Below the pieces are notes generated by a model. That model ran no database searches. It was not told the origin of the DNA and was given only the letters and a program-made list of their open reading frames with translations. The translations under genes were made by a program, and so were the position numbers. From Sinohyriopsis cumingii (taxonomy: Eukaryota > Mollusca > Bivalvia > Unionida > Unionidae), in the NCBI GenBank assembly GCA_028554795.2, contig CM068825.1, positions 153,590,053-153,654,052 on the forward strand: a stretch of 64,000 bases of DNA. Reading direction: 5' to 3'. Of the stretch, positions 1,295-50,649 are shown one piece after another (position 1 is the first letter of the stretch; every line of letters starts with the position of its first letter).

Positions 1295-1954
1295 TTGTAT
1301 CTTCGCCATCCCTTTAACATGCTCATTGCTGGACCTAGCGGTTCAGGCAAAACCGAATTCGTCAAACGTTTGATCGAACATAAACATCATTTGATCGATC
1401 GGCCACCTCAACGGATCGTGTGGTGTTACAAAGAGTGGCAATCGGCGTACAACCTCTTGCGAGAAAGTCAAGGCGATTCCATCGTGTTTGTGGAAGGCAT
1501 TCCTAAAGAAGACGACGGCATCGTCTCTGACTCCCGTCAAACCCATTTGGTCATTTTCGACGACATGTTAGGAGAAGACGAAGAAGAAATTAAACTGTGG
1601 TTCACGCGCAAAGGGCATCACCGTAATGCCAGTGTCGTTTACATCACCCAAAATTTGTTTCAACAAAGTAAAGCCCATCGCACCATCAGTCTCAATGCGC
1701 ATTACGTGGTCTTGTTTAAAAGCCCTCGAGATAAATCGCAAGTGCAAGTCTTAGCCAAACAGTTAGGAACGCCTTGGCTGACTCAGGCGTACGACGATGC
1801 CACTCAAACGCCACACGCCTATTTACTCGTTGATTTGAAACCTACAACCCCCGAGGATTTGCGATTTCGTACCCACTTGTTTCACCACTGGTACCAAGAC
1901 GGAGGGCCTGTCCTGTACACGTCTCCGTCCTCGACTTCATTTCACTCCACATAA
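1295..1954 (+). CDS. Genome-packaging ATPase (FtsK/HerA type)
   Basis: This is the Polinton packaging ATPase, which in related viruses pumps the genome into the capsid. A Walker A motif, GPSGSGKT, lies at residues 13-20 of the open frame. A Walker B, LVIFDDM, is at 85-91, and a sensor-like strand, SVVYITQN, at 113-120. The size (about 220 residues) fits the family. The start used here is simply the first alternative start in the frame; the sequence just upstream also reads like family N-terminus, so the real start is unsettled. A TATA box lies at 1157. The stop is followed within 10 bases by the next TATA box at 1961. Confidence 0.93.
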   Translation: MYLRHPFNMLIAGPSGSGKTEFVKRLIEHKHHLIDRPPQRIVWCYKEWQSAYNLLRESQGDSIVFVEGIPKEDDGIVSDSRQTHLVIFDDMLGEDEEEIKLWFTRKGHHRNASVVYITQNLFQQSKAHRTISLNAHYVVLFKSPRDKSQVQVLAKQLGTPWLTQAYDDATQTPHAYLLVDLKPTTPEDLRFRTHLFHHWYQDGGPVLYTSPSSTSFHST

Positions 1955-4098: not shown

Positions 4099-5208
4099 AT
4101 GGAAAAAGTCTTAGCCAGCATTTACTACGATCCCTCGCATCCTGCAGGTTACGCAGGAGTTCAAAAATTGTATCGTGCTGCCAAAACGCGACTGAAAAGT
4201 CTCCGTTTACCTCAAGTGCAACGATGGTTACAAGAACAAGCTACCTACACTTTACACAAACCCATTCGACGCAAGTTTGCCAGAAGTCGCACCCGAGTGG
4301 AAGGCATCGATCATCAATGGCAAGCCGATTTAGCCGATGTCTCTCATTTGGCCAGCTACAATCGTGGCTACAAATATTTGTTTTGTGTCATCGACGTCTT
4401 TTCCAAATTTGCCTGGGTCGTGCCCTTGACTTCCAAATCGAGCAGTGAGTTAGTGCGAGCCCTGCAACGGGTGTTGAAACAAAGCGGTCGTCACCCTCTT
4501 CGATGGCAAACGGACAAATGCACCGAATTTCTAAACCAAGCTTTCCAAAAAGAATTAAAGAAACGTGACATTCATTTTTTTACCACCGAAAATCCCGAAA
4601 CCAAAGCCAGCATCGTGGAACCTTTTCAACGCACTTTGAAAGAACGCATGTGGAAATATTTTGCGCATCACCACACTCTGAAGTACATCGACATCTTACC
4701 GCACCTGGTGCAAGCGTACAACCAATCTTACCATCGAAGCATTGGACGTGCCCCGCAAGAAGTGACTCCCGACAACGAAGTGTTGGTGTTTGAGCGCCTG
4801 TTTGGTACGTCCCCGACGAGGGCTGTCCCCAAGAAAAGTGGAGAGTTGACCGTAGGAGATTGGGTGCGCATTGGCAAAACCAAACGCACTTTCGACAAAG
4901 GTTACTTACCTAACTGGACGACCGAATTGTTTCGCGTCACTGGACGAGTGCATGGCCGTCATCCTACCGTCTATAAATTGGAAGACATGAACGGAGAAGT
5001 GCTCAAAGGAACGTTTTATTTGCACGAGTTACAACGTGTCACCAAAAAAGAAGACGACGTGTACGACATCGAAAGCATTCTCGAACGCAGAACCCGTAAA
5101 GTGGGCAAACGACGTGTCAAAGAAGTCAAAGTACGTTGGAAAGGATACCCACCCAGTTTTGATTCTTGGATCGACGCTTCGCAAGTCATCGACTATAAAA
5201 AGAAGTGA
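4099..5208 (+). CDS. Retroviral-type DDE integrase with chromodomain
   Basis: This 369-residue Polinton integrase inserts the element into host chromosomes. The N-terminus has the family motif YYDPSHPAGYAGVQKLY. The rve core shows Asp at about residue 77 (WQADL), Asp at 139 (QTDKCTEF) and Glu at 174 (SIVEPFQ), a D,D-34-E spacing. A DNA-binding SH3-like stretch follows. A chromodomain lies at about 315-366 with the aromatic core WKGYPPSFDSW, which in related integrases may steer insertion toward modified chromatin. The ATG at 4099 gives the expected family N-terminus. The stop overlaps the region just before the membrane-protein ATG. Confidence 0.96.
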   Translation: MEKVLASIYYDPSHPAGYAGVQKLYRAAKTRLKSLRLPQVQRWLQEQATYTLHKPIRRKFARSRTRVEGIDHQWQADLADVSHLASYNRGYKYLFCVIDVFSKFAWVVPLTSKSSSELVRALQRVLKQSGRHPLRWQTDKCTEFLNQAFQKELKKRDIHFFTTENPETKASIVEPFQRTLKERMWKYFAHHHTLKYIDILPHLVQAYNQSYHRSIGRAPQEVTPDNEVLVFERLFGTSPTRAVPKKSGELTVGDWVRIGKTKRTFDKGYLPNWTTELFRVTGRVHGRHPTVYKLEDMNGEVLKGTFYLHELQRVTKKEDDVYDIESILERRTRKVGKRRVKEVKVRWKGYPPSFDSWIDASQVIDYKKK

Positions 5209-6999: not shown

Positions 7000-8313
7000 A
7001 TGATGCACCGAGAATCTTGCGCTTGTTCCAAGTCGGAACTGGATCTGTTTGCCATGCCCCCCACCATGATGACGATGCAAGAATCGCAGTGGGTGGAATT
7101 TCACCCCGTCTCCTCATTGACAGCCTCAGATCCCATCGAGTTTGAAATCAAAGGACAGCCCGAAGATTACATCGATCTGAATAGCAGTTACTTGTACTTG
7201 AAAGTCAAAGTTGTCGATGAGGACAATTCGACCCTAGATGGCGATGAGGTAATAGCTCCCGTCAACAATTTCATGCATTCCTTGTTTAGCGGAGTGGACT
7301 TGTACTTGAACAACAAACTGGTCAGCAGCAGCATGGATACTTACCCTTATCGAGCGTATCTGGAAAATCTCTTGACGTACGGAATAGACGCCAAGAACAC
7401 TCATCTCAATGCCTGTGTGATATGGGAAGCTGACGAAGCTGACAAGTTTGAAAATTTCGAAACTAATGCTACCAAAGACAACAATGACGGATTTGTAGAA
7501 CGAAGAAACAGAATCATAGAAGCCAACACAAGTTTAGAACTAATGGATCGTTTGCATTTGGACATGTGGTTGCAAGAGAAATATTTGCTGAACGGAGTGA
7601 ATGTTCGCCTGAGACTGAATCGCAGTAGTGCCACTTTCCATTTGATAGGTACTACCGCTTGCAAAACTGTCATCGAGGAAGCCAGGCTCTACGTACGACG
7701 CGTGGAAGTGTTACCTAAAGTGGGTAACGACATCAGTCAGACGTTGAGCAGAACGACCGCTAAGTATCCGATCCGACGCGTGGAAGTGAAAACCTTCACC
7801 ATTCCCAAGGGACAGCGATCCATGATCGAAGATCATCTGTTCCAAGGACAGCTACCCAAACGTTTGATCGTTGGTATCGTCGAGAATGAAGCCTTCAACG
7901 GAGCTTTGGCTAAAAATCCTTTCTACTTTCGACACTTTGGCGTGTCCAAGATCGAAGTCAGTCGCGATGGCAAAACCTTGTGTACCCGACTCTTTGAGCC
8001 TGACTTTGAGAAGAAGAATTACTTGAAATCGTACTTGTCCCTGTACCAAGCCACGGGACAGTTAGGAACCAACACCAGTCACGGCATTACGTACGACGAT
8101 TATGCAAAAGGCTATGCTTTGTGGGCTTTCGATTTCACTCCAGACCAAGGCAGCGACGAGGGACATTTCCACCCTATAAAATCTGGCCAAATTCGTGTGG
8201 AAATTCAGTTTGCAAACCGAGACCCTGATGTAACGGTGAACGTCATCCTGTATGCAGAATTCGATAATGCCATAGAAATCAACAGTTTGAGAGAAGTCAT
8301 TCTAGACTATTAG
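7000..8313 (+). CDS. Major capsid protein (double jelly-roll)
   Basis: About 437 residues begin at ATG 7000, chosen because the seven upstream codons lack an ATG. The conserved region DYIDLNSSYLYLKVKVV near residue 60 and the downstream FSGVDLYLNNKLVS segment are hallmarks of the Polinton hexon-like major capsid protein, the family often annotated as F54H12.2-like in animal genomes. It would form the trimeric capsomers. The frame is open throughout with no membrane segment. It is the longest capsid gene and stands in the expected place after the pVI-like gene. Confidence 0.93.
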   Translation: MMHRESCACSKSELDLFAMPPTMMTMQESQWVEFHPVSSLTASDPIEFEIKGQPEDYIDLNSSYLYLKVKVVDEDNSTLDGDEVIAPVNNFMHSLFSGVDLYLNNKLVSSSMDTYPYRAYLENLLTYGIDAKNTHLNACVIWEADEADKFENFETNATKDNNDGFVERRNRIIEANTSLELMDRLHLDMWLQEKYLLNGVNVRLRLNRSSATFHLIGTTACKTVIEEARLYVRRVEVLPKVGNDISQTLSRTTAKYPIRRVEVKTFTIPKGQRSMIEDHLFQGQLPKRLIVGIVENEAFNGALAKNPFYFRHFGVSKIEVSRDGKTLCTRLFEPDFEKKNYLKSYLSLYQATGQLGTNTSHGITYDDYAKGYALWAFDFTPDQGSDEGHFHPIKSGQIRVEIQFANRDPDVTVNVILYAEFDNAIEINSLREVILDY

Positions 8314-8804: not shown

Positions 8805-8848
8805 AGAAAAAAAACACACAAATGGATACCTGGGAACTTTAATACCTT

Positions 8849-9382
8849 TTGAACCACAGTTCGTATACGGCTTCTTGGAATCCCGTCGCCTGTGCTAAAG
8901 ATGAACTCCGTCATCGCAAACCTCAAGACCATCAAGCTTATGTGATCAACACGGACGACAGTCATCTCCCAGGAACCCACTGGGTAGCCGTTTACTTTCC
9001 TCAAGAAGGATGTGTGGAATATTTCGATTCGTACGGATTGCCCCCTTTGGAAGACGATATCATCGACTTTATGAGAAGAAATGCTCAGACCACCCGATTC
9101 AATAATGTGAAATTACAAGGCACAGATTCCTTGGTGTGTGGACAATATTATGTGTATTTTCTGCATCATCGCAGCCTGGGCTATTTCTTAGAACAGTTAG
9201 TAACTCATTTTGATCCTCGTTCTTCTTCTAGAAACGATGTGAAAGTAGATCGATGGTTTTGTGATCATTATGCCTATCTTTTGTCTCAAGCTAGGAAACG
9301 TAGTGTCCATCAATGGCCTAATGACTTCCAACAGTGGAAATCACAATTTCATTCACAACGTTGTCAGCCCTGTTTAAAGTAG
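8849..9382 (+). CDS. Adenain-like cysteine protease
   Basis: This is the Polinton maturation protease of the adenovirus endopeptidase (C5/Ulp1-like) clan, expected to cleave capsid precursors. The catalytic set is visible: His at about residue 44 in PGTHWVAVYF, Asp at 60 in EYFDSYG, Gln near 90 and Cys at 97 in LVCGQYYVYF. About 177 residues are open, close to family size. The extreme N-terminus and start are unsettled. It is the last gene of the conserved block and is followed by an AT-rich stretch with AATAAA at 9492. Confidence 0.88.
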   Translation: MNHSSYTASWNPVACAKDELRHRKPQDHQAYVINTDDSHLPGTHWVAVYFPQEGCVEYFDSYGLPPLEDDIIDFMRRNAQTTRFNNVKLQGTDSLVCGQYYVYFLHHRSLGYFLEQLVTHFDPRSSSRNDVKVDRWFCDHYAYLLSQARKRSVHQWPNDFQQWKSQFHSQRCQPCLK

Positions 9383-9491: not shown

Positions 9492-9497
9492 AATAAA
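9492..9497 (+). terminator. Poly(A) signal after the protease
   Basis: AATAAA lies about 110 bases after the protease stop in AT-rich DNA with repeated ATGTTTG/ATGTTG words. It marks the end of the ordinary polyadenylated genes; the three genes that follow have a different type of 3' end. Confidence 0.55.
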
Positions 9498-9624: not shown

Positions 9625-9660
9625 GGATGTTTTCCTTCACGTCCGCGCTTTGACTTTAAG
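9625..9660 (+). promoter_or_regulatory. Cassette 1 promoter: 24-bp element plus TATA-like box
   Basis: A 24-bp element (GGATGTTTTCCTTCACG... ending GTCCGCGC, 9625-9648) is followed by CTTTAAG at 9654-9660. The element recurs at 10508, 11311 and 11379. The ATG at 9715 lies 66 bases past the element's end. Confidence 0.7.
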
Positions 9661-9714
9661 AACCGGGGAAGTTTCCAGTCTAACCATCCATTGTCGACTC
9701 ATCCTCCTACGAAG

Positions 9715-10086
9715 ATGTGCTCCAAACTAGCTAAGCTAAACGAAGCCTACGTAAATTTGCATAGGGTCAGACACAGTCTGATACCGAAGCCAGAAGAGAT
9801 AGAGAATGTGAGAATGTTAAAAGTCACTGAAGACCTGATAGAAGAGCTCTTCAGAGAAGAAGTGAACAGGGAGAAAGAAGAATGGACAGAGAAGTACAGA
9901 CTTCAGAGACAGCAGCAGCAGCAACAGCAACAACAACAACAACAACAGCAGCAGCAGCAACCTGAACCTGACAGAGGCTTTGTCGATTGTCGTATCGACA
10001 CCAAAGAGTTCTTCTTCTCTTTCCGAAGAAGCAGACCTATCGCCAGAAAGTCCATCCTCAGAGGACATCGCATTCTTAGAAACTAA
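9715..10086 (+). CDS. Cassette gene 1: coiled-coil protein with polyglutamine tract
   Basis: The ATG at 9715 is chosen because the frame upstream of it crosses the promoter element. The 123-residue product opens with Leu/Ala/Glu heptad-like helices, including DLIEELFREEVNREKEEW, which echoes modules in cassette gene 3. A run of about 17 Gln (mixed CAG/CAA, 9911-9961) follows, then a basic tail. No family is recognised. The gene ends 38 bases before a histone-type stem-loop. Similar promoter, size, helix content and 3' end tie it to cassette genes 2 and 3. It probably belongs to the element's accessory region; function unknown. Confidence 0.65.
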   Translation: MCSKLAKLNEAYVNLHRVRHSLIPKPEEIENVRMLKVTEDLIEELFREEVNREKEEWTEKYRLQRQQQQQQQQQQQQQQQQQPEPDRGFVDCRIDTKEFFFSFRRSRPIARKSILRGHRILRN

Positions 10087-10124
10087 AAGATTGCCATAGC
10101 AAACAAAAAAAACAGACAAAAAAC

Positions 10125-10163
10125 AGCCCTTTTCAGGGCTACCCCAATACTCTAGAAAAGAAA
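10125..10163 (+). terminator. Histone-type mRNA 3' stem-loop and downstream element 1
   Basis: A 6-bp stem AGCCCT/AGGGCT closes a TTTC loop (10125-10140), followed by ACCCCA. The purine-rich block AGAAAAGAAA starts 13 bases past the stem. This matches the replication-dependent histone stem-loop plus U7 site layout. It lies 38 bases after the stop of cassette gene 1, with no AATAAA between. Confidence 0.82.
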
Positions 10164-10473
10164 TAACCATCAATATGCCAATGTGTGTAGGTAGAGTAGT
10201 GTGAATATAAACACTAACTCTTTTTTATAGTGTGAGGATATGTGTTTGTGTATAGGATTGTGTGTTTGTAAGTGCTCACGTGCGTTGGTGTGGATAGTAG
10301 ATTAAGATGATTTTTTGGTGTTTCAGGTGTGGGGAGAGTAGATTTAGGGTTCGATTGGATTGCTTTGCGTATGTGAATAGTATATTATTTGTTTAATAAA
10401 ATTTTTTAGAATAGTGATGGGTAGCATAAAAAGTGAGTGAGTGTTTCTTTTAGGTCTGCGCGTTGTTTGGTCA

Positions 10474-10490
10474 TGATCTAGGTAAGATCA
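10474..10490 (+). promoter_or_regulatory. Palindromic operator-like site, copy 1
   Basis: TGATCTAGGTAAGATCA is an inverted repeat with perfect 6-bp arms around a 5-base centre. An identical copy is at 11347. It lies 17 bases upstream of the 24-bp promoter element of cassette 2, so it may bind a dimeric regulator. No binding protein is known. Confidence 0.45.
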
Positions 10491-10507
10491 ATTTTATGTT
10501 TTTAGGG

Positions 10508-10543
10508 GGATGTTTTCCTTCACGTCCGCGCTTTCACTATAAC
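10508..10543 (+). promoter_or_regulatory. Cassette 2 promoter: 24-bp element plus TATA-like box
   Basis: The 24-bp element at 10508-10531 is identical to that at 9625 and is followed by CTATAAC at 10537-10543. The ATG at 10594 lies 62 bases past the element, the same spacing as in cassette 3. Confidence 0.72.
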
Positions 10544-10593
10544 TTGAAACTCGCTGGACAGTCTAGCTACCCTGTTCATTCGTTGACAAAACA

Positions 10594-10908
10594 ATGAATA
10601 CCAGAATTGTGAAACTGCTAGAACTCCAGATGCACCTGGAATATGCCAGGCGCATACTAAATGAACTGGCCGCGGAGGCCATTGTAGAAGAAGCAAGAAT
10701 GAAAGAGGAGGAGGAGGAAAGAAGAAGAAAAGAAGAGGAGGAGAGAAGAAACAAAGAAGAGGAGAGAGGAAATTTCAGAATCCCAGAGACAGAAAATTGG
10801 GATTCTGAAGCCACATATCCCGCCTCTGCACTCCCAAGAAGAAAGGTGAAAGGAGACTGGGGAAAAAGATGCGTGTGTGGCGCCAGGCCAGGAAGGTGCC
10901 ATCATTAG
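10594..10908 (+). CDS. Cassette gene 2: charged helical protein
   Basis: A 104-residue protein begins at ATG 10594. The first 60 residues form an amphipathic then highly charged Glu/Arg helix with EEEERRRKEEEERR repeats. The C-terminal part carries a Cys-x-Cys near the end (CVCGARPGRCHH). No family is recognised. The opening KLLELQMHLEYARRILNEL resembles the helical opening of cassette gene 1. It ends 35 bases before a histone-type stem-loop. Function unknown; kinship to the neighbouring cassettes rests on promoter and 3' end as well as helix pattern. Confidence 0.6.
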   Translation: MNTRIVKLLELQMHLEYARRILNELAAEAIVEEARMKEEEEERRRKEEEERRNKEEERGNFRIPETENWDSEATYPASALPRRKVKGDWGKRCVCGARPGRCHH

Positions 10909-10943
10909 ATAGGTGCATCTGGAGTTAAAAAAAACAAACCAAC

Positions 10944-10981
10944 AGCCCTTTTCAGGGCTACCCAATACTCTAGAAAAGAAA
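10944..10981 (+). terminator. Histone-type mRNA 3' stem-loop and downstream element 2
   Basis: The stem AGCCCT/AGGGCT with TTTC loop at 10944-10959 is followed by ACCCA, and AGAAAAGAAA begins 12 bases past the stem. It is nearly identical to copy 1. Confidence 0.82.
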
Positions 10982-11310
10982 TAACCATCAATTTGCCAAT
11001 GTGCGTAGGTAGAGTAGTGTGAATATAAACACTGACTCTTTTTTTATAGTGTGAGGGTATGTGTTTGTGTGTTTGTGTTTGTAAGCGCTCACGTAAGTTT
11101 GTGTGAATAGTAGATTATGGGTTGGTTAATTGTTTCTTAGCGTATGTAGAGAGTATAATTTGGGTTATGTAAAAGATAAAGTAGGATTGTGTGGATAGTA
11201 GATTATGGATTAGGTTTTAATGATTTGCGTGTGTAAATAGTAGATTTGGGGATTGTTCATTGATGGTTAACGTATGTGGATAGTAGATTATATGAAATCA
11301 GAAAAGTAGG

Positions 11311-11334
11311 GGATGTTTTCCTTCACGTCCGCGC
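11311..11334 (+). promoter_or_regulatory. Orphan copy of the 24-bp promoter element
   Basis: An exact copy of the 24-bp element lies 45 bases upstream of the cassette 3 copy, separated from it by the palindrome at 11347. It has no TATA-like box or ATG at the usual spacing, so it is probably an upstream duplicate. Confidence 0.6.
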
Positions 11335-11346
11335 GTTGCTTGGTCA

Positions 11347-11363
11347 TGATCTAGGTAAGATCA
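11347..11363 (+). promoter_or_regulatory. Palindromic operator-like site, copy 2
   Basis: This is an exact copy of the 17-bp inverted repeat at 10474, lying 15 bases upstream of the 24-bp element at 11379. Its conserved spacing supports a role in transcription control. Confidence 0.45.
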
Positions 11364-11378
11364 ATTTTATGTCTTGGG

Positions 11379-11414
11379 GGATGTTTTCCTTCACGCCCGC
11401 GCTTTTCGTATAAG
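11379..11414 (+). promoter_or_regulatory. Cassette 3 promoter: 24-bp element plus TATA box
   Basis: The 24-bp element at 11379-11402 differs from the others at one base (CGCCC for CGTCC). TATAAG follows at 11409-11414, and the ATG at 11465 is 62 bases past the element. Confidence 0.72.
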
Positions 11415-11464
11415 AACTCACCACGTTCGTCGTTCGAACCATTCTACGGAATAACAGATACAAG

Positions 11465-12046
11465 ATGGAAGTGTCCGCGTTGTTTAATGACTTAAGAAAT
11501 GTTTACTTTTGGATGATAGATGGAGAATATACTATTGAAAGGATAGAAAGAGAATGGAGGTTGAGAAAAAGTCTTGACTATGTCAATGAACTAAAATTAG
11601 CGAGGAAGATGATAGAGGAGATGATAGAAGAAGAAGTTAAGAGATTGAGAGGATTGATTCAACCAGAGTATGTAAGAGTGGGGACTATAAAAGAGTCTAT
11701 GGACAAGGTAAAAGGAGTGAGATGTTATTTAGAAGAGCTAGAGAAATGGTCAGAGTGGAAGTTGGTGAAAAGGGGCAGTGAACAACTAAAGAAAGCGGAA
11801 GAAAAGATGAAAAAGATAATAGAGGAAGAAGTGCAGAAAATTAAGGACAGGTGGGCAAAAGATAGAAAAGAACAAGAGAATAGAAAGAAAAAAGAAGAAT
11901 ATGAGAGACTGAACAATAACTGGATAAAAATCCAACAGAAGTTCCGAGCCATGGGTCACCCGGACTGGATACCGGAAAATGAAAAGAAGAAGAACAAAGG
12001 AATTTGGGGAAAGATTAGGGGCTGGATGATGAAATGGAGGAAATAG
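11465..12046 (+). CDS. Cassette gene 3: long coiled-coil protein
   Basis: A 193-residue protein begins at ATG 11465 (ACAAGATGG). It is almost wholly helical and highly charged. Two related modules, ARKMIEEMIEEEVKRLR (about 46-62) and AEEKMKKIIEEEVQKIK (about 111-127), resemble a segment of cassette gene 1, suggesting internal duplication. The C-terminus, GIWGKIRGWMMKWRK, is tryptophan-rich, basic and amphipathic and could touch membranes. No family is recognised. The stop lies 12 bases before the best-matching histone stem-loop in the window. Function unknown. Confidence 0.68.
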   Translation: MEVSALFNDLRNVYFWMIDGEYTIERIEREWRLRKSLDYVNELKLARKMIEEMIEEEVKRLRGLIQPEYVRVGTIKESMDKVKGVRCYLEELEKWSEWKLVKRGSEQLKKAEEKMKKIIEEEVQKIKDRWAKDRKEQENRKKKEEYERLNNNWIKIQQKFRAMGHPDWIPENEKKKNKGIWGKIRGWMMKWRK

Positions 12047-12058
12047 AAGAAAGCCAAA

Positions 12059-12097
12059 GGCCCTTTTCAGGGCCACCCATATTTCTCGAAAAAAGAA
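12059..12097 (+). terminator. Histone-type mRNA 3' stem-loop and downstream element 3
   Basis: GGCCCTTTTCAGGGCC at 12059-12074, preceded by CCAAA and followed by ACCCA, equals the metazoan histone 3' consensus at every position I can recall. A purine block GAAAAAAGAA starts 13 bases past the stem at 12088. Confidence 0.88.
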
Positions 12098-12164
12098 TGA
12101 CTTTCCATTGCCTACCCCTTTTTTTAAAAAAAAATTTATTTTTAAAAAAAAAAATCCCATATTC

Positions 12165-12420
12165 AATTTCCCTTGACGCTAGACAGTCCCACGATTTTTT
12201 CTCCATGTTAAATTCCCCTTGACGCTAGATTGACCCAGGGTTTTTCTCCATGTTAAATTCCCCTTGACGCTAGATTGACCCACGATTTTTCTCCATGTTA
12301 AATTCCCCTTGACGCTAGACTGACCCACGATGTTTCTCCATGTTAATTTTCCCTTGACGCTAGATTGACCCGGGGGGGGGGTCTGTAATTCTAATTCCCA
12401 TTGATGCTAGGGTGACCCTA
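12165..12420 (+). repeat. 45-bp tandem repeat at the right end of the Polinton
   Basis: Five copies of a 45-46-bp unit containing CCCCTTGACGCTAGATTGAC and CTCCATGTTAAA have GACGCT at 12175, 12221, 12266, 12311 and 12356. A weaker sixth copy is near 12403, after a G-run. It may mark the element's terminal region, but this cannot be tested without the left end. Confidence 0.75.
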
Positions 12421-12671
12421 TTCACTACTCACGTTATTGACTTTGTAATGAAACTGACTTCCAGCTTTCTTTCCTTTTTAAAATTAAAACGCTTAACATT
12501 TATTAATGTTGACGATGGTAATATAAATCTTACAACAACAACCAAAAAAAAAAACCCGCTTAATATCTACTTCCATTTTGTTGTTATGTAGTCTTCTTTC
12601 AACTTGTTAGTTCTAGTATTATTGCATCCGAAAATGACTATAATATTTTGGTGGATCTAGCATGTACAAAC

Positions 12672-48900: not shown

Positions 48901-50649
48901 ATGGATGCAGTCAAGTTCTCTCTCATAGCAGTGACAAAGCCAACACATGGGGGTCTCAAGTCAGTTCAGGCACCAGACTGTAATGCCACATCTGGGTCTG
49001 CAATAATTCTACGACCATCATCCAAAGCAAAACTGGACCTGAAAGAGACAAATTTGAATGAGCACGATGGGACACGTATGATCTGTATGGAAAAAATGTT
49101 GAAATGTGAGAATGATATCATTCGTCGCCATGGTAATCAAGTCAACATATTTGGCAGACCAGAGTTCCAAATTGCTAATGAAATAAAATGGGGACTTCCT
49201 TGGAATCGTATTATGATGTGCAAAAACTGCACCTTTAAGTCACCATAGTATAAGTTGTATGAGGAGATAAAAACAAATAAACCTGGGCCAAATCCTGCTG
49301 CTGTAAATATGATATTTCAAGCTGGACTACAAGATACACCAATGGGCAACACCAGGGCTAGATACTTGCTTGCAGCCACTGACATTCCGCCACCTAGCAG
49401 AACATCTATGCAAAGGGCCTCCAACCTTGTAGGCAAATCAGCTGTGGAGCTCAATGAAATGGACATGACAGACAAGCTGAAACTAGTCAGACAGGTTAAT
49501 GTCATGCGTGGTGTTCAGCACCCTGAGCAAATAAATGTTGCTTTTGATGCAAAATACAATGCCATTAGCTTTGGACATGAAATGAAACCTGGTCAATGTT
49601 CATCACAAGCTGTTGGAATTGCCTGCGAAACTGTTACAGAGAAGCAATACATTGTGGGGACTACAGTAGAAAACAAGGTGTGTTGGACTAGAGCATGGCT
49701 GAAGGGGAAAGGTTTTGATGTGCAATGTCCAGGTGGCCATGTTGACTGCACATCAAATCTGTCACCAGTTGCACCACATTCAGAGTTTGAAATGGCAAGA
49801 GAAATGGGAAACAAGTTTGTGCTGCAAGAGATTCTCATTGGACATGCAACAACAGATGGAGATGCACAGGCTGCTGCTGGCTTCCAAAATACTTACACCA
49901 TTCTGCATCCAATGTGGAAAGTAGAAAGACTGTCGGATCCCGTCCATTTGGGTCGTTTACAGTTCAAACGGTGTAATTCTGCAATATTTAGTGAAAACAT
50001 GTTTCCAGGAATAAGAACAAGAGAAGGAAAAAGGCTCAAACAGAAAATTGTCAGCCAAGACATTAAAGCAGGTTGCGGTTTGATCTTCAAGCAAATGATG
50101 GAGGACAATAGTGGTGATGTTAAAAAAATTAAATGTCAACTTCCCCATTTGCTGGATACCACTCTGCGCTGTTATTCAGGGGACTGCTCAAAATGCCGGC
50201 ATTATTCAAAGGTCTGTGGGGGAGGAAGTACTAACAGCTGGTGGATGCGATCAGCATACCTGGGCCCTCATCAAGTGACTCATCTCAACATGACAGAAAA
50301 TGATAAGAACATCCTGCTAGTAGTTCTGAAAATGAAACTCTCCTGTGATGTTGTAGAAAGACTGCGACTGAACACAAACACACAGAAATGTGAGGCGGTG
50401 AACAGATCAATCAGTGTTTCATTACCATAAAATGTGAACTATTCCAGAAATTTTGAGGCAAGAGTGCATTCAACAAGACACAGACACAATAACAGCATGG
50501 GATCATCATTGAAAATAAAAGGGACACACTTGGGAGGTAAACTTTCAACAAGGACTCTGAGATCACTGGAGACAATGGATAAAGACTGCACTTACCATCA
50601 GTTGTATCAAAAGCATCCACAAACCAGGAAATGTACTCTGGCAAGATGA
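48901..50649 (+). pseudogene. Transposase-like protein, disabled by two in-frame stops
   Basis: One frame is open for about 580 codons apart from TAG at 49246-49248 and TAA at 50428-50430; coding similarity reads straight through both (CKNCTFKS, then YKLYEEI; VSLP, then NVNYSRNF). Features are a CKNC pair, GLQDTPMGNT, IPPPSRTSMQ, an Asp in NVAFDAKYN, TTDGDAQAA and a Cys-rich CYSGDCSKCRHYSKVC. I recall this layout from transposase-like proteins common in cnidarians and molluscs, possibly of the Mutator-like group. The Asp in NVAFDAKYN and those in TDGD are candidate catalytic residues. Two stops in an otherwise intact frame point to recent loss. Terminal inverted repeats were not found. Confidence 0.65.

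Follow-up and report, generated by a model that had tools for sequence, protein, structure and literature searches.

In a 64,000-nucleotide (nt) stretch of the genome of the bivalve Sinohyriopsis cumingii (contig CM068825.1, forward-strand positions 153,590,053 to 153,654,052; hereafter the window), the first 12.4 kb form the right three quarters of a Polinton of about 16.8 kb. Our analysis indicates that this abundant Polinton lineage very probably runs its terminal accessory genes with the replication-dependent histone programme of its host. Both the on-switch and the RNA-ending signal of these small genes are like those of host histone genes, which suggests that the genes would be made during host DNA copying. 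As far as sequence can tell, the histone-type programme is real: the right-end genes carry it on both sides, and the left-end genes at their 3′ end.

The right end of the element carries three accessory genes (g1, g2 and g3), together with upstream blocks and downstream stem-loops (SL1, SL2 and SL3). These features are given below in window coordinates, with stem-loop scores for the Rfam family RF00032, the histone 3′ stem-loop:

9626–9649, plus strand: g1 promoter block, 0 mismatches to GATGTTTTCCTTCACGTCCGCGCT
9715–10086, plus strand: accessory gene g1, 123 amino acids, no family above cut-off
10125–10140, plus strand: SL1, stem-loop AGCCCT TTTC AGGGCT; RF00032 match at 10120–10164, 29.3 bits, E 2.7e-4
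10155–10164, plus strand: downstream purine element GAAAAGAAAT, 14 nt past SL1
10444–10464, plus strand: second upstream block of g2, matching the block before host H4 with 1 mismatch in 21
10509–10532, plus strand: g2 promoter block, 0 mismatches to GATGTTTTCCTTCACGTCCGCGCT, TATAA shortly after
10594–10908, plus strand: accessory gene g2, 104 amino acids, highly charged, no family above cut-off
10944–10959, plus strand: SL2, stem-loop AGCCCT TTTC AGGGCT; RF00032 match at 10939–10984, 31.7 bits, E 3.3e-5
10973–10982, plus strand: downstream purine element GAAAAGAAAT, 13 nt past SL2
11312–11335, plus strand: g3 distal promoter block, 1 mismatch
11380–11403, plus strand: g3 proximal promoter block, 1 mismatch, TATAA shortly after
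11465–12046, plus strand: accessory gene g3, 193 amino acids, no family above cut-off
12059–12074, plus strand: SL3, stem-loop GGCCCT TTTC AGGGCC, at the inner end of the inverted repeat; RF00032 match at 12054–12099, 41.2 bits, E 9.4e-9
12088–12097, plus strand: downstream purine element GAAAAAAGAA, 13 nt past SL3

An earlier note on this DNA had reported three small genes followed, 12–38 nt past the stop, by a 6-bp stem with a TTTC loop, and we confirmed the coordinates: the stop-to-stem distances are 38, 35 and 12 nt for g1, g2 and g3 (stops at 10086, 10908 and 12046). The ACCC(C)A flanks that it described were found as ACCCC, ACCCA and ACCCA at SL1, SL2 and SL3, and its purine-rich block after each stem as GAAAA, beginning 14, 13 and 13 nt past the respective stems. 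The note also held that no histone gene is present; among the window reading frames scanned, which were a part of all frames, there was no Pfam histone match. The covariance-model check that it proposed divided the three stem-loops: SL3 lies above the RF00032 gathering score of 34 bits and was the sole match above any Rfam gathering score in the 64-kb window, while SL1 and SL2 scored just under it. A regular-expression scan of the window returned SL1, SL2, SL3 and one A/T-only palindrome. Chance hairpins were ruled out by the Rfam E-values together with the fixed stem-to-block spacing. The note's reading of these as histone-type 3′ signals appears to hold, since they are kept in other copies, fixed in spacing and in agreement with host histone 3′ ends.

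The tails of g1 and g2 are duplicates, 84% alike over 118 nt. Translation of g1 probably starts at ATG 9715, because the promoter block lies at 9626–9649. The AlphaFold model of g3 is all helical (predicted local distance difference test score 81) and gave 0 matches at E <= 0.001 in viral and PDB structure libraries; three environmental relatives of g3 were found (54–57% identity).

Host histone genes provided the direct comparison. Of 662 candidates, 150 were scored as host histone matches, a lower bound; most of these fall within an 8.3-kb tandem repeat. One of its units (L083) carries H3, H4, H2B, H2A and H1. A cmscan search of this unit yielded five RF00032 matches of 35.0–39.4 bits, one per histone gene (5/5), with stop-to-stem distances of 27–38 nt and stem-to-GAAAAG distances of 13–14 nt. 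The element's 3′ ends carry a hairpin and a purine element at the host's spacing (13–14 nt in both). Four of the five host histone genes have the stem GGCCCT/AGGGCC, which also follows g3 and two left-end genes, g0 and gL; the H1 stem differs from the other host histone stems by a compensated pair at the third position. The sequence CTAGAAAAGA is common to the H3, H4, H2B and H1 signals and to the 3′ signals of g1 and g2, its counterparts being CCCGAAAAGG in H2A and CTCGAAAAAAG at SL3. Compared with metazoan replication-dependent histone genes, the element's genes are alike in hairpin class, loop, purine block and its spacing, and stop-to-stem distance, and g1–g3 have a promoter block common to host H2B and H1; they differ in encoding non-histones, with no Pfam family above cut-off. 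Lucina histone genes with such hairpins are described in a clam histone paper (PMC6210712).

A comparison of upstream regions revealed long words common to the element and host histone genes. As the promoter query we used a 24-nt block from the window, GATGTTTTCCTTCACGTCCGCGCT. Within the host repeat this block occurs before H2B (1 mismatch in 24) and H1 (2 mismatches) and, reversed, before H2A (5 mismatches); a chance match with 8 mismatches lies inside the H2A gene. Across 300 dinucleotide shuffles per upstream region the best matches had 7–8 mismatches, and those of the H2B and H1 regions had 8 at best. Among blocks at element loci, 13 of 61 were identical to the H2B 24-mer, and a TATA-like word, from a loose word list, lay within 20 nt of the block in 51 of 65 cases. 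A host histone-type promoter, taken as an H2B/H1 block with a TATA-like box, was found for g1–g3. This putative promoter block shared with host H2B and H1 is new here; two further findings described below, the left-end genes and a stem-loop that faces outward in the inverted repeat, likewise go beyond the earlier note. The sequence ACGTCCGC resembles what we take to be the HINFP recognition site. HiNF-P binds the H4 promoter and recruits NPAT, which drives S-phase histone transcription and is required for 3′ processing, as a review states (PMC5706932).

We infer from these signals that the element uses the host pathway for 3′ processing and S-phase timing of its small transcripts, with timing to host DNA synthesis as the likely purpose. 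In the mechanism that we propose, the block shared with host histone promoters and the TATA-like box upstream of g1–g3 would let host histone gene factors transcribe the element genes in S phase. Downstream, the SLBP-type hairpin, followed by a U7-type purine block at 13–14 nt like the host's, would have the U7 small nuclear ribonucleoprotein (snRNP) cleave just past the stem. The resulting mRNA would be non-polyadenylated, held by SLBP and degraded once replication stops.

The 3′ ends might instead be mixed, with the stem-loop used in part and most transcripts polyadenylated downstream, an arrangement that is compatible with the other explanations and that we consider unlikely. AATAAA is present at 9492, past the gene at 8843–9382, and at 10395, between g1 and g2, the latter as mixed ends would predict; however, on the plus strand there is none from SL2 to g3, nor from SL3 to the right end of the element. 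Moreover, C. elegans histone genes with both a hairpin and a poly(A) signal have their ends after the hairpin, according to one paper (PMC1924863). The element resembles these genes in having a conserved block downstream of the hairpin. Their poly(A) signal follows the hairpin at once, whereas AATAAA in the element comes only 255 nt past SL1 and, unlike in C. elegans, is missing after SL2 and SL3 before the next gene or the element end.

The 10 kb adjoining the window on the left (L031) contain the left inverted repeat, g0, a polymerase B piece and a BIR-domain gene. The gene g0 is small and points rightward; its reading frame is disrupted in the present copy, and 21 nt past its stop comes a stem-loop (SL0) with a purine block at 13 nt. 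In the left inverted repeat a stem-loop lies on the minus strand (L031:5956–5971), 24 nt past the end of an outward-facing frame, gL; gL is followed by a stem-loop because the terminal inverted repeat carries one. Since SL3 is located at the inner edge of the right repeat, the last gene on either side obtains its 3′ end from the inverted repeat. We take a further gene, g3b, to be an alternative right-end gene. The signals of g0, gL, g1, g2, g3 and g3b all have the host's 13–14-nt spacing. The first stem pair is G-C after g0, gL and g3 and A-U after g1 and g2, which represents one compensated change only, because the g1 and g2 tails are duplicates.

Two further observations concern the right-end genes. 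Despite their different bodies, g3 and g3b have in common a basic, tryptophan-bearing C-terminal tail (window 12000–12043; L020:1557–1946; L074:1592–1981). At L033:2065–3063 on the minus strand, the counterpart of 8843–9382 is fused in frame to g3, giving a frame of 332 amino acids that ends 23 nt before a stem-loop; this is probably a deletion derivative.

Searches of the whole genome (2.905 Gb, 1138 contigs) indicated how widespread these signals are. With RF00032, 75 matches were scored from 589,472 first-look candidates, a selection that is not complete in score order: the listed matches include some at 34.5–36.5 bits, yet lack the host histone signals (35.0–39.4 bits). All 75 listed matches score above the gathering cut-off and have a same-strand element gene ending within 700 nt upstream; the nearest gene was gL in 29, g0 in 23, g3 in 12 and g3b in 11. 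Neighbouring histone genes were ruled out as their source, as tblastn of five host histones gave 0 matches in these loci. An AAAAG-type word stands 13 nt past the stem in 74 of the 75. The exact stem-loop 21-mer GGCCCTTTTCAGGGCCACCCA occurs 13,559 times (backwards control, 0), a figure that counts signals, not elements, and the promoter-block pattern GATGTTTTCNNTCACGTCCGCGC occurs 31,228 times (control, 0). The first 100 listed positions of the 21-mer include recurring pairs, minus strand followed by plus strand, about 1.06–1.09 kb apart, as expected of element left ends.

Such numbers raise the possibility of a decoy or sponge, in which the signals would act in trans on SLBP, U7 snRNP and histone transcription factors, or would draw the element to the histone locus body, orderly 3′ ends being a by-product. 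There are indeed 13,559 exact stem-loops and 31,228 exact promoter blocks against at least 150 histone matches, but copy number may merely reflect amplification. The signals also stand right after conserved genes at fixed spacing, with the promoter block before g1–g3, as a role in cis needs, and we regard the decoy as improbable.

Because the 75 loci were picked by score, they do not measure how often the signal is retained. For that we assembled a retention sample from the 75 loci, L031 and the window, restricted to gene copies that did not owe the selection of their locus to their own signal; from it we removed copies below 40% identity, copies with short tails, near-duplicates, and any g3b match whose first 60 nt contained no partial loop. 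By regular expression the stem and loop were intact in 69 of 83 copies (g0 21/27, gL 25/26, g1 5/6, g2 15/20, g3 1/2 and g3b 2/2, the last without weight because the partial-loop filter favours g3b). All six stem pairs, counting G-U, were present in 70 of the 83, and a GAAA word stood at 13 or 14 nt in 81. Before filtering, among copies with an aligned C-terminus, a perfect stem-loop lay within 150 nt in 44/50 (g0), 53/54 (gL), 5/7 (g1), 16/22 (g2), 14/15 (g3) and 18/29 (g3b), counts that include signals that had brought loci in; 10 of the 11 g3b rows without a stem-loop look, by eye, like chance Glu-rich matches.

For gL (26 copies), mean pairwise identity was 0.99 in the stem-loop and 0.97 in the purine block, against 0.81 upstream and 0.66 downstream. 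For g2 (20 copies) it was 0.94 in the stem-loop, 0.95 in the block, 0.95 in the ACCC stretch and 0.70 upstream, and for g0 (27 copies, young) it was 0.95, 0.96 and 0.96 in the stem-loop, block and ACCC stretch. The genes are also under selection at the protein level. Ratios of nonsynonymous to synonymous substitution rates (dN/dS) were computed pairwise with our own NG86 script, taking frames as they stand; the input was limited to stop-free stretches of at least 40% identity that spanned 60% of the gene or more, a choice biased towards intact copies. Median dN/dS was 0.37 for g0 (n = 32), 0.12 for gL (n = 50), 0.29 for g1 (n = 3 only), 0.22 for g2 (n = 14), 0.19 for g3 (n = 5) and 0.22 for g3b (n = 7). 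All six therefore behave as protein genes. The median dS of gL was 0.97, and gL has two environmental relatives at 75–77% identity.

These data bear on whether a host histone 3′ end and promoter were once captured and then amplified as passengers without function. Past the purine block, the host H2A tail matched the g2 tail better than all 1000 shuffles did (best of 25 comparisons), which hints at capture from an H2A-like gene; 1 of 1000 shuffles was as good for H2A against the g1 tail, and the remaining 23 tail comparisons gave values of at least 0.024. Relatedness of the copies by descent would also suit a passenger. However, at about one substitution per synonymous site the stem, block and spacing of gL outconserve their flanks, one stem pair shows a compensated change, and signals follow six gene types, so we consider a functionless passenger very unlikely. 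That the hairpin instead acts at the DNA level, as part of the inverted repeat in replication, integration or packaging, is hardly credible: SL3 does lie at the repeat's inner end and is mirrored in the left repeat, but SL0, SL1 and SL2 lie outside the repeats, on the coding strand just past stop codons, the stem-loop of the left repeat follows the conserved outward gene gL, and a DNA hairpin has no need of a purine block at 13 nt.

Relatives beyond this genome were sought from the element's probable capsid gene (7000–8313, below). Distant capsid relatives (27–44% identity) are encoded by six stretches from five bacterial genome records; since three titles name an animal host, these stretches probably represent contamination by host or other eukaryotic DNA. 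No relatives of the capsid gene were found in viral contigs, nor was an exact match to one stem-loop pattern. A relative of gL in ENA, available as protein only (P0125), reads past the usual end, and its codons there are compatible with a stem-loop followed at 13 nt by GAAAA, an arrangement that 1 of 20,000 shuffled versions of the tail fits. Among the openly licensed papers listed, none describes histone-type control signals on Polinton genes, and PMC11071308 mentions neither histone, mollusc nor stem-loop.

Several results weigh against use of the histone programme. By score, SL1 and SL2 are histone stem-loop-like, not members of RF00032, and g1 could be polyadenylated by way of the AATAAA at 10395. 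On the promoter side, the block is absent from the host H3 upstream region (L083) and loose upstream of host H4 (8 mismatches, reached by 0.7% of shuffles), and a histone-like promoter for g0 and gL was not supported, the best of 10 comparisons being reached by a fraction of 0.037 of shuffles. No U7 small nuclear RNA gene was found by Rfam in the genome, a search that also gave nothing in control genomes; a U7 pattern search of the genome returned 40 matches versus 29 backwards, and none of the 15 of 40 inspected had a convincing hairpin. Conservation is uneven: the ACCC stretch of gL reaches a mean pairwise identity of only 0.80 (26 copies), the downstream flank of g2 0.90 (20 copies), and the flanks of g0 are nearly as conserved as its signal (upstream 0.88, downstream 0.77). 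Conservation counts are also not independent events, because copies share descent. Finally, the check in other Polintons that the earlier note proposed was negative in the six distant fragments available: they contain no RF00032 match at E <= 1 and no promoter block (best 8–10 mismatches), several of them being short, so the accessory region may be missing there. Because six distant relatives are without both signals, the histone-type signals are probably a lineage-specific invention.

According to a 2007 paper, no genes other than replication-dependent histone genes are known to make mRNAs that end in a hairpin and lack poly(A) tails (PMC1924863). If the Polinton genes do run on the histone programme, a non-histone, virus-like gene set with histone signals would be a natural experiment on the histone mRNA pathway; it would explain how such genes might go unnoticed in RNA data from poly(A)-selected libraries, and would illustrate how an integrated DNA element can match the timing of its genes to replication in the host. 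We are more tentative, and lean slightly against, on the fuller version in which the complete programme, promoter and 3′ end, has been taken over, with histone-locus-body, S-phase, non-polyadenylated mRNAs and a family that may compete with the host for SLBP, U7 and promoter factors. Such competition, if true, would force co-evolution of element and host.

The remaining parts of the element are as follows:

1319–1954, plus strand: A32-like ATPase, PF04665 E 6.8e-5, 22.9 bits against a cut-off of 22.8
4099–5208, plus strand: integrase with chromodomain, PF00665 and PF00385, both above cut-off
7000–8313, plus strand: probable major capsid protein, double jelly-roll-like PF21738 in a relative only
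12055–12434, plus strand: right terminal inverted repeat, pairing with L031:5593–5975 as reverse complement

By its inverted repeats, integrase with chromodomain and A32-like ATPase, the element is a Polinton/Maverick, of the adintovirus-like type. It is like Polinton/Maverick elements in its length of about 16.8 kb and in its inverted repeats, integrase and A32-like ATPase, and probably also in a polymerase B piece and a capsid-type gene, and differs in the histone-type control signals on its terminal genes, which none of the six distant relatives has. The terminal inverted repeat is 383 nt long (94.8% identity over 386 columns), and a 45-bp tandem repeat lies within it at window 12151–12371. 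Only a C-terminal piece of polymerase B exists in this copy, left of the window (PF03175, 20.1 bits against a cut-off of 25.8). Neither the capsid gene nor any of its 33 aligned relatives (0/34) has a Pfam match, and there is no solved structure; the probable capsid label is supported through one relative, P0116 (42% identical), which has the double jelly-roll-like domain PF21738 above cut-off. Among 8000 candidates scored, 1184 capsid relatives were found, the named ones from Mercenaria, Crassostrea, Saccostrea, Ostrea and Littorina. The gene at 8843–9382 is a probable protease, weakly supported by a match to a viral cysteine protease (E 0.0017), the next matches being antibody chains (E 0.019). 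Inside the element, the frame at L031:8529–9194 has a BIR (inhibitor of apoptosis) domain (E 5e-23). Outside the Polinton, a Mutator-like transposase gene lies at window 49309–50430 (PF20700, E 1.4e-54).

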